Shown here one piece after another: positions 6,651-39,601 of a stretch of 64,000 nucleotides of DNA (position 1 is its first letter; each line of letters opens with the position of its first letter). The notes below the pieces were generated by a model, which worked only from the letters and a program-made list of their open reading frames with translations, made no database searches and had not been told where the DNA came from. Origin of the DNA: Helicostylum pulchrum (lineage: Eukaryota > Mucoromycota > Mucoromycetes > Mucorales > Mucoraceae); assembly GCA_025677825.1 (NCBI GenBank), contig JAIXMO010000033.1, forward strand, positions 248,001 to 312,000. Direction: 5' to 3'. A program made the position numbers and the translations under genes.

Positions 6651-7960
6651 GCTCACTGAAATATCTGAGTTTATAAAATCGCTCACATAAGAAATCACTG
6701 CTAAAATTAGCAGTTATAATAAATATTGGTTTTTATTTTTCAAAGAAACAGGAAACGCTTTTTGGACCCAGGTTTTTTAATACAAACTAGTTGTTTTAAC
6801 TATATCTTTGATAAAAAAAATTAAAAACGTACTCTTTTGTTTTTTTTCGATTTTCATTTTTGGGGGTCAACCCCTTTTGTGTTTTTGTAGTTACTTTGTA
6901 ATTACTCTAGATCCAATTTGCCTATCTTTGCGTAAAACCCATGCTTGGTATTAAACTCGTTTAGGCTCTTCTAATATATTTTAAATCATACTTTTACTGC
7001 AAAAACTGAAAGAGTAATCGCCGTTTTAGACGTTTTCTTTTTTGGGTAAAAAAATAGGCTTTTTTAGTGTAACATCGTGTAACCATTTTCTGAGCTTCGC
7101 GATTACATAAAATATAGTTTTTGAATATCTACATTCGGTCCTATAACCAAACACGATAATGAAAAACTACATATCGAATGTTTATAAATAAAAGTGTTAT
7201 ATCTAAAACTGGGCGAGAAAACGTGCTTTAAAGAAATCGCTATTTTAATGACCGCTTAACTCAAATTTTAGCGGAAAAAAAAACGTCTAAAACAGTGATT
7301 ACTCGGTCACTATTTTTATTAAAAATATAAGTTTAAATGAATTAAATGCGCCTAAAAGAGAACTTTATTATTATTGTTTTTTTCACAAAGAAAGTCAAAT
7401 TGGATCCAGAGTAATTTTAAAATAACCACAAAAACACAAAAGGGGTTGACCCTCCAAAATGACCAAAAATGATCAAAAATGATCGACTGAAGAATAAAAT
7501 AAAAAATCGAGAAAAACGTAAAACAACAGGCAGTTTTTAGTTTTGATATTATAGACAACATCCTAAGGAGTAACTTCACTAAGTAACTTGGAAAAACGAA
7601 CAATGTCCTGATGTTTAATTATACAAAGAAATCACCGTATTTCGGTCACCGAAAAATGACCTTTTTTAGAAGTTACTTCGAAACCTTCACTTCAAAAGAC
7701 GCGTTTTTAACATGATAATAGGTGAAAAATAATTTACTATAACACTTGAAATGGTTCTTGAACTCACTCAAGTTATTGTACAAAAAAATATGCTGTGTAT
7801 CGTTTTCTGCAAGAGCTCAAACATTAGAATCATTTTAAATTTTATTAAATTTTTTATTGTGTCAAAATGTCACATAACAATGCTTTATAAAACTACTAGC
7901 TATAATATATAGGACTAAAAAGTAGCTTCTTGTTCGCTTTATTTGGTTTATACTGTATAG
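6651..7960. mobile_element. Foldback transposon, end-truncated copy 1
   Basis: This stretch aligns in direct orientation with 37,997-39,330. The match is near-identical from 6651 to about 7570 and clearly weaker after that. The core is a long imperfect inverted repeat centred near 7142. For example, GGGGGTCAACCCCTTTTGTG near 6866 pairs with CACAAAAGGGGTTGACCC near 7434, TCTAGATCCAATTTG pairs with CAAATTGGATCCAGA, and the GTTTTAGACGTTTT blocks pair on both arms. It has no transposase gene, so it is non-autonomous. The outer ends seen in the intact copy (CAGTAGCGGCTCT and its complement) are absent here, so both termini are lost. Confidence 0.8.
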
Positions 7961-37935: not shown

Positions 37936-39601
37936 CAGTAGCGGCTCTATTTAATGGTGTCCGAAATGCAGTGAATAATTACTTCTAAAGAAAAAAGCTC
38001 ACTGAGACACCTGAGTTTAAATAATCGCTCACATAAGAAATCACTGCTGAAATTAGCAGTTATAATAAATATTAGTTTTTATTTTTTAAAGAAACAGGAA
38101 ACGCTTTTTGAACCCAGGTTTTTTAATACAAACTAGTTTTTTTAACTATATCTTTGATAAAAAAAAATTAAAAACGTAATTTTTTGTTTTTTTTCGATTT
38201 TCATTTTTGGGGGTCAACCCCTTTTGTGTTTTTGTAGTTACTTTGTAATTACTCTAGATCCAATTTGCCTATCTTTGCGTAAAAACCATGCTTGGTATTA
38301 AACTCGTTTAGACTCTTCTAATATATTTTAAATCATACTTTTACTGCAAAAACTGAAAGAGTAATCGCCGTTTTAGACGTTTTTTTTTTTGGGTAAAAAA
38401 ATAGACTTTTTTAGTGTAACATTGTGTAACCATTTTCTGAGCTTCGCGATTACATAAAATGTAGTTTTTCATTATTGTGTTTGGTTATAGGACCGAATGT
38501 AGATATTCAAAAACTATATATCGAATGTTTATAAATAAAAGTGTTATATCTAAAACTGGGCGAGAAAACGCGCTTTAAAGAAATCGCTATTTTAATGACC
38601 GCTTAACTCAAATTTTAGCGGAAAAAAAACGTCTAAAAAAGTGATTACTCGGTCACTATTTTTATTAAAAATATAAGTTTAAATGCATTAAATGCGCCTA
38701 AAAGAGAACTTTATTATTATTGTTTTTTCCACAAAGAAAGTCAAATTGAATCGGAAGTAATTTTAAAATAACCACAAAAACACGAAAGGGGTTGACCCCC
38801 AAAATGACCAAAAATGATCAAAAATGATCGACTGAAGAATAAAATAAAAAATCGAGAAAAACGTAAAACGACAGGCAGTTTTTAGTTTTGTTGTTAGAGA
38901 CAACATCCTAAGGAGTAACTTTTACTAAGTAACTTGGAAAAAAAGAATCATTTCCTGACGTTTAATTACACAATGAAAACACCTTATTTCGATTGCCGAA
39001 CAATCTTTTTTATAAGTTACTTCTAAACCTTCACTTAAAAAGACGCGTTATTAAGTTGATAATGGATGAACAACAATCTATGGTATTACTTTAAATAGTT
39101 CTTGAACTTTTCCTAGTTATTTTACAGAAAACTACGATGTGTATTGTTTTCTGCGAGAGCTCAAACATTAAAGTTATGTTAAATTCTATCAAATTTTTTA
39201 TTGATGTCAATTAAAATAGTACAAAGCTATTTATTGGAATACCACATAACAATCCATTTAAAAACTGCTAGCTATGATATATTGGACTTAAGGTAACTTT
39301 GCGTTTACTTTATTTAGCTTACACTGCATTCCTTTTCAATCTTTCATCACTTAGCAACAGTCTGTATTTAGTTACTTTTCCAAGTTAAATTTCTGCTGAT
39401 ACGCGCTCCATTCAGGCATAAATTGACCGTCTTTGTACTTTAATTTACTTTGTAAGGTTTATTTTATTATCTTCTCTCTATCAATTTGACTATTATTACT
39501 TTTAAATTATTTTATATATTTAGTAGTTTTGTGAAGTTGGATTCCATCCTTAAATCAACCGTACCCTTAAATCAGGTCACCCCCAAAAAGAGCCGCTACT
39601 G
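37936..39601. mobile_element. Intact non-autonomous foldback DNA transposon (copy 2)
   Basis: The element is 1,666 bp. It starts CAGTAGCGGCTCT at 37,936 and ends AGAGCCGCTACTG at 39,601, perfect 13-bp terminal inverted repeats. TA flanks it on both sides (37,934-35 and 39,602-03), so the ends read TACAGT...ACTGTA, as in Tc1/mariner-type elements that insert at TA. No transposase reading frame exists inside. The interior from about 37,997 to 38,930 is a long imperfect inverted repeat centred at about 38,489. The unrelated outer right part (about 38,950-39,590) is unique. It aligns with the truncated copies at 6,651-7,960 and 19,460-19,920. Superfamily assignment to Tc1/mariner is inferred from the ends and the TA duplication only. 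Confidence 0.85.

Follow-up and report, generated by a model that had tools for sequence, protein, structure and literature searches.

A short segment at the centre of one transposon copy reads backwards in a 64,000-nt window of Helicostylum pulchrum DNA (contig JAIXMO010000033.1, positions 248,001 to 312,000), and this raises the question of whether the segment is a working genetic switch, an artefact of assembly or the product of a mutational accident. The sequence-only reading had described a 55-bp inversion with one mismatch between two copies of the element, and alignment of the two bears this out, as positions 7,115-7,169 of copy 1 match the reverse complement of 38,462-38,516 of copy 2 with one mismatch in 55 positions, versus 22 mismatches when read directly. 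This difference rules out chance, and the flip is real in the assembled sequence. The 8-bp inverted repeats said to bound the segment, TAGTTTTT and AAAAACTA, are likewise both present. The two centres and the short repeats around them are located as follows.

7,112-7,172, unstranded: inverted loop segment of copy 1 at its maximum extent (minimum 7,114-7,170); it matches copy 2 in reverse complement with a single mismatch over 55 positions, and the flank mismatch is swapped.
7,112-7,122, forward strand: left arm of the short inverted repeat that bounds the segment, ATATAGTTTTT, complementary to the right arm at 10 of 11 positions.
7,162-7,172, forward strand: right arm of the repeat that bounds the segment, AAAAACTACAT.
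38,459-38,519, unstranded: unflipped centre of copy 2, in the orientation of 141 of the 142 scorable copies.

If copy 2 represents the ancestral state, the flip is wider than 55 bp, with a minimum of 57 bp (7,114-7,170) and a maximum of 61 bp (7,112-7,172). The copy 1 centre consists of a 39-bp loop between 11-bp arms of the repeat ATRTAGTTTTT, which are complementary at 10 of 11 positions and perfect over the inner 8 bp. At the lone mismatch of this repeat, copy 2 has G in the left arm and T in the right (ATGTAG..CTATAT), while copy 1 has A and C (ATATAG..CTACAT), a combination seen in 4 of the 125 normal copies with a 65-column centre. The swapped mismatch in copy 1 is as expected had it been turned together with the loop, in which case the flip extends past the 55 bp. 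With copy 2 taken as ancestral, both breakpoints would lie in the two outermost base pairs of the 11-bp repeat. The distance between the same flanks is 60 bp in both copies, so that there was no net change in length.

The element itself is best defined by copy 2, a complete unit of 1,666 bp that contains no open reading frame of 60 amino acids or more.

6,651-7,960, forward strand: copy 1, which lacks the terminal inverted repeat (TIR) at both ends.
37,936-39,601, forward strand: copy 2, the complete 1,666-bp element, with TIRs CAGTAGCGGCTCTATTT.. and ..AGAGCCGCTACTG, flanked by TA.
6,854-7,462, unstranded: internal imperfect palindrome of copy 1, axis at 7,158, with arms of 84 nt (87% complementary) and 86 nt (77% complementary).
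38,205-38,804, unstranded: internal imperfect palindrome of copy 2; z = -9.35 when folded as single-stranded DNA.

Both TIRs were found by pattern in 23 of 70 long loci; these 23 copies range in length from 1,179 to 2,422 bp, and 19 of them have TA on both sides, where the TA may equally be a target duplication or part of the TIR sequence. In L002, L007 and L019 the flanks match at both ends over more than TA (TATCATA, TACTA and TACTA, respectively), and some copies may thus have a target duplication of more than 2 bp. The copies L006, L008, L029 and L030 and the sites C5:10,850 and C114:308,037 all stop matching copy 1 at query position ~1,208-1,215 of 1,310, hinting at either a common breakpoint or a subfamily whose 3' end differs. 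In foldback transposons such as Tetris and Galileo, long inverted arms form the ends of the element. The earlier description of a foldback transposon is inexact: long inverted arms exist here too, but these arms are internal (38,205-38,804 in copy 2) and short TIRs form the ends at 37,936 and 39,601, so that the term does not apply in its strict sense. The element is instead a non-coding transposon with TIRs, TA flanks and a palindrome in its interior. We take it to resemble nonautonomous elements of the Tc1/mariner type, with which it has in common the TA at its ends, a TIR beginning with CAGT and the non-coding nature of copy 2, whereas the long internal palindrome sets it apart. Searches for transposase domains gave 159 matches to DDE_3, none of those listed lying, on inspection by eye, between facing exact TIR sites less than ~9 kb apart among the 100 of 142 TIR sites covered, and one match to DDE_1, and neither tied a transposase to the TIRs of the element. 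A candidate autonomous partner, L147, was set aside; the 5.4-kb stretch between its facing TIRs holds a single stop-to-stop frame of at least 90 amino acids (108 amino acids).

Copies were sought over the 32.2-Mb genome from which the window derives. This gave 429 first-look candidates, of which 40 were scored, and 146 non-overlapping loci were ultimately compared, drawn from the best matches and from two short-pattern searches (the first 100 of 219 sites and the first 100 of 148 sites). Reversed-pattern controls gave 64 and 0 sites, respectively, indicating that part of the 219 sites are background. Scoring each centre against both orientations yielded 140 normal loci, one flipped locus and five unscored loci, one of which (L081) proved normal on a second look, while the remaining four (L068, L082, L087 and L106) have different sequence after the left flank, where the centre belongs. 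In L068 (G000:C1, ~367.7 kb) and L082 (G000:C81, ~337.6 kb) the left flank leads into the same distal sequence at the same point and the palindrome centre is missing, which looks like a common internal deletion. Counting the two orientations over the genomic copies, the check that had been proposed, thus gave 141 normal centres among 142 that could be scored, with copy 1 of the window as the sole flipped copy. The idea that the centre is structurally active and varies in orientation between copies is not supported by this count. The inverted state is the derived one, given that 141 of 142 copies are normal and that copy 2, the closest copy to copy 1 over their common tract (see below), is among them.

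Junction patterns gave a consistent picture. The normal left junction was found at 172 sites genome-wide with up to 3 mismatches (reversed-pattern control, 0), as against the 142 centres scored for orientation. The flipped left junction was found at 127 sites with up to 3 mismatches, as expected also for normal copies because their right junction resembles the pattern on the other strand; among the 100 matches listed, only copy 1 was free of mismatches. Four of the matches listed had one mismatch, three inside copies scored as normal (C35:165,024 in L075, C114:367,287 in L056 and C114:389,525 in L057) and the fourth, C116:91,751, outside the scored copies. For the flipped right junction, copy 1 matched with 2 mismatches and the other 56 sites with 3. 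A scan for local inversions over 23,279 windows in 69 copies returned seven hits, all at the copy 1 centre, and no further local inversion elsewhere in these copies.

The two copies were said to be almost identical around their centre. This is true within a tract of ~920 bp and fails beyond it, as copies 1 and 2 are ~97% identical from about 6,677 to 7,597 and ~79% identical outside, a separate estimate for the right part being ~81%.

6,677-7,597, forward strand: conversion-like tract common to copy 2, from a substitution change-point fit.

Counting substitutions only, the fit placed the start of the tract at 6,677 (support 6,665-6,688) and its end at 7,597 (support 7,545-7,601), with differences at 28 of 857 sites within the tract, 8 of 37 to its left and 76 of 360 to its right. 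The gain from a single change point was 40.9, versus a maximum of 11.6 over 5,000 permutations of the sites. When gaps were included, copies 1 and 2 ranked 12th of 435 pairs, and all 11 pairs above them contain L020 or L029, which carry large alignment gaps at their ends; the substitutions-only fit was therefore used to define the tract. The support for the tract midpoint, 7,111-7,142, reaches the centre of the flip at 7,142.

Turned back to the normal orientation, the copy 1 loop has in common with copy 2 a C that occurs in none of the 124 other aligned normal centres, as well as a T found in 8 of 125 normal centres, and at the one position that differs the copy 1 loop has the majority base (118 of 125 normal centres) and copy 2 the rarer one. 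As the flipped loop carries the C of the copy 2 type, it is part of the 6,677-7,597 tract. The flanks of copy 1 match the remaining long loci in no more than short stretches of 20-43 bp, and for the right parts the best match of copy 1 is L006 (87%) and that of copy 2 L028 (about 90%). These matches, together with the absence of TIRs from copy 1 and its fragmentary flanks, suggest that copy 2 was the donor of the tract and copy 1 its probable recipient.

We also considered how the flip relates to the palindrome. The long arms of copy 1 pair 6,854-6,937 with 7,379-7,462 and 6,956-7,041 with 7,275-7,360, and their axis at 7,158 does not coincide with the flip centre at 7,142, contrary to the initial placement of the segment exactly on the axis. 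While the whole palindrome of copy 2 folds much more strongly than its shuffles, the local 106-nt centre folded no better than shuffled sequences (z between -0.77 and 0.30; z = -1.23 for 69-nt versions), and the outer palindrome may be what brings the short arms into contact. Most copies have poorer short arms, and in only 25 of the 126 centres aligned do 10 or 11 of 11 positions pair. Both palindrome arms (6862-6874 and 7442-7453) contain a G/C-rich mini-hairpin motif (GGGG..TCAA or TTGA..CCC), although the element is A/T-rich elsewhere. A structured RNA or tRNA was also entertained for this region and discarded, as a search of the window against Rfam gave no match at gathering score and a tRNA search gave none.

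Sequence exchange between the arms was assessed by setting each left arm against the right arm of the same copy and against those of other copies, leaving out 4 of the 70 long loci as incomplete. Over the 66 copies, own-arm identity was 0.7708 versus 0.7698 between copies (p = 0.25), and family-wide homogenisation of the arms was not detected. One copy stands out. In L044 (G000:C89:27,100-30,500), 187 bp of arms are 95.7% complementary, versus a mean of 77% in the 66 copies, with an excess in arm identity of 0.147 where the next highest is 0.049. Of 19 positions that are unpaired in the majority sequence, 18 are paired in L044, through changes in the right arm only (11), the left arm only (3) or both (4). 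L044 is thus a case of arm homogenisation, mostly though not solely from left to right, and the one clear case among 66 copies.

Copy 1 is alone among the scored copies in having its hairpin loop inverted in place, and we consider a polymerase template switch the probable cause. A polymerase copying copy 1 would have jumped to the opposite strand inside one arm of the 11-bp inverted repeat, read through the 39-bp loop in reverse and returned to its first strand inside the other arm, possibly while a break at the copy 1 palindrome was being repaired from copy 2, which lies 31 kb away. The flip is then most likely an isolated accident of copying or repair, of a kind already known, and not a working genetic switch. 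In favour of template switching, the arms directly flank the inverted segment, its length is unchanged, and arm homogenisation is seen in the same hairpin family; loop inversion in copy 1 and homogenisation in L044 are the two published products of template switching, which is why this route is favoured. These same features agree with the sequence-only proposal of a hairpin or between-arm event. Against it stand the loop of 39 bp, longer than in reported cases, the poor short arms of most copies, the lack of family-wide homogenisation and a local centre that shows no folding advantage over shuffles. We infer template switching as the route, with copy 2 as the donor and the repair of copy 1 from it as a possible setting.

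Comparable events have been described. In Saccharomyces cerevisiae, template switching between inverted repeats is reported to give both arm homogenisation and spacer inversion (Abraham & Hazkani-Covo 2021; PMC8604942), with inversions on arms of 10-16 bp, only where arms exceed 9 bp, and with spacers of 2-5 bp. The copy 1 flip resembles these in the spacer turned in place, in arms of ~10-11 bp and in its companion product, here in L044. It differs in its 39-bp loop, the 2-5 bp in yeast being a reported range and not a defining requirement, and in its setting of arms matching at 10 of 11 positions, a 600-bp imperfect transposon palindrome and a conversion-like tract. In RNA genes, inversions of hairpin loops have been ascribed to template switch mutations, with complete inversions read as a sign of interstrand switching (PMC8794818); there, too, the entire loop is inverted and the stem retained, but these are RNA genes with shorter loops, typically of 4 nt and in some cases of 7-8 nt, and not a transposon. 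Hairpin-bounded small inversions in Laureae plastomes (PMC6824564) likewise involve a loop between short inverted arms in two orientations, although both orientations occur across species, versus one of 142 copies here, and the loops span 4-24 bp. Hairpins are not the sole route to microinversion, as avian microinversions of 5-38 bp showed no association with stem-loops in hotspot loci (PMC3123225). Among the open-access titles listed in a literature search, none concerned loop inversion in a foldback element or MITE.

Of the other explanations, an error of assembly or polishing, in which software inverted the consensus at one hairpin and the locus is really normal, fares best and is still unlikely. 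A single affected copy among 142 and the difficulty of sequencing hairpins would fit such an error. However, the flipped loop is not simply copy 2 reversed, as it has the majority base (118 of 125) where copy 2 has the rarer one; it lies inside a tract that shows substitutions of the ordinary sort (28 of 857 sites), and assembly gave a single orientation for the remaining 141 hairpins scored. Somewhat less probable still is that an extruded hairpin or cruciform was cut through both strands at its base and the small piece ligated back the other way round: the breakpoints at the edge of the 11-bp repeat and the strong folding of the whole palindrome are in keeping with this, but no base was gained or lost between the flanks (60 bp in both copies), and the arm homogenisation in L044 requires copying, although that was a separate event in a separate copy. 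A switch flipped by a site-specific recombinase, with variable orientation, is highly improbable even though the boundary repeats are inverted and the segment turned as a unit, because 141 of 142 scorable copies have one orientation, copy 2 encodes no frame of at least 60 amino acids and the short arms are not kept exact (10 or 11 of 11 complementary in 25 of 126 aligned centres).

High-identity tracts within otherwise diverged elements are frequent among nearby copies. Only 16 of the 2,346 pairs formed by 69 copies are closer than 50 kb, but such pairs made up 6 of 17, 4 of 6 and 3 of 3 of those whose best 300-bp window lay more than 3, 4 and 5 SD above expectation, respectively (Fisher p = 2e-8 at 4 SD, where pairs with a common copy are not independent). 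In 10 of the 16 close pairs the best 300-bp window was at least 96% identical, and in 4 of those 10 another window fell below 80%. This enrichment points to local ectopic gene conversion, and local transposition could contribute to the similarity of nearby copies. In the pair L049/L050, one 300-bp window is 100% identical and another 76%. L004 and L005 (G000:C124, ~94.3 and 89.3 kb), ~5 kb apart and in opposite orientation, show no differences over 1,066 informative sites, which suggests recent conversion or an inverted duplication. A permutation test of common tracts with 400 shuffles was set aside as not discriminating, as it was passed by all 60 listed pairs, many with diverged or truncated copies (L046, L066); we relied on the best-window enrichment and the change-point fit for this reason. 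A preference of tracts for the palindrome centre was also considered and set aside: several close-pair tracts cover the centre and the L003/L009 tract does not, and the tracts are long relative to the element, so that overlap with the centre is no evidence of preference. Identity across copies is higher near the centre, which could reflect constraint or conversion. A tentative extension, which we regard as possible but doubtful, is that the palindrome is a break hotspot, that a break begun at the hairpin of copy 1 was mended with copy 2 as template, and that this repair also reversed the loop and left a conversion tract with the flip at its centre.

Taken together, this palindromic element, dispersed through the genome in well over 100 copies, amounts to a natural assay of hairpin-mediated mutation, with rough counts of one loop inversion in 142 scorable copies and one clear arm homogenisation in 66. 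Copy 1 suggests that a loop as long as 39 bp can be inverted by template switching. If the reading of the palindrome as a break hotspot were general, this transposon family would record palindrome-triggered repair between neighbouring copies genome-wide.
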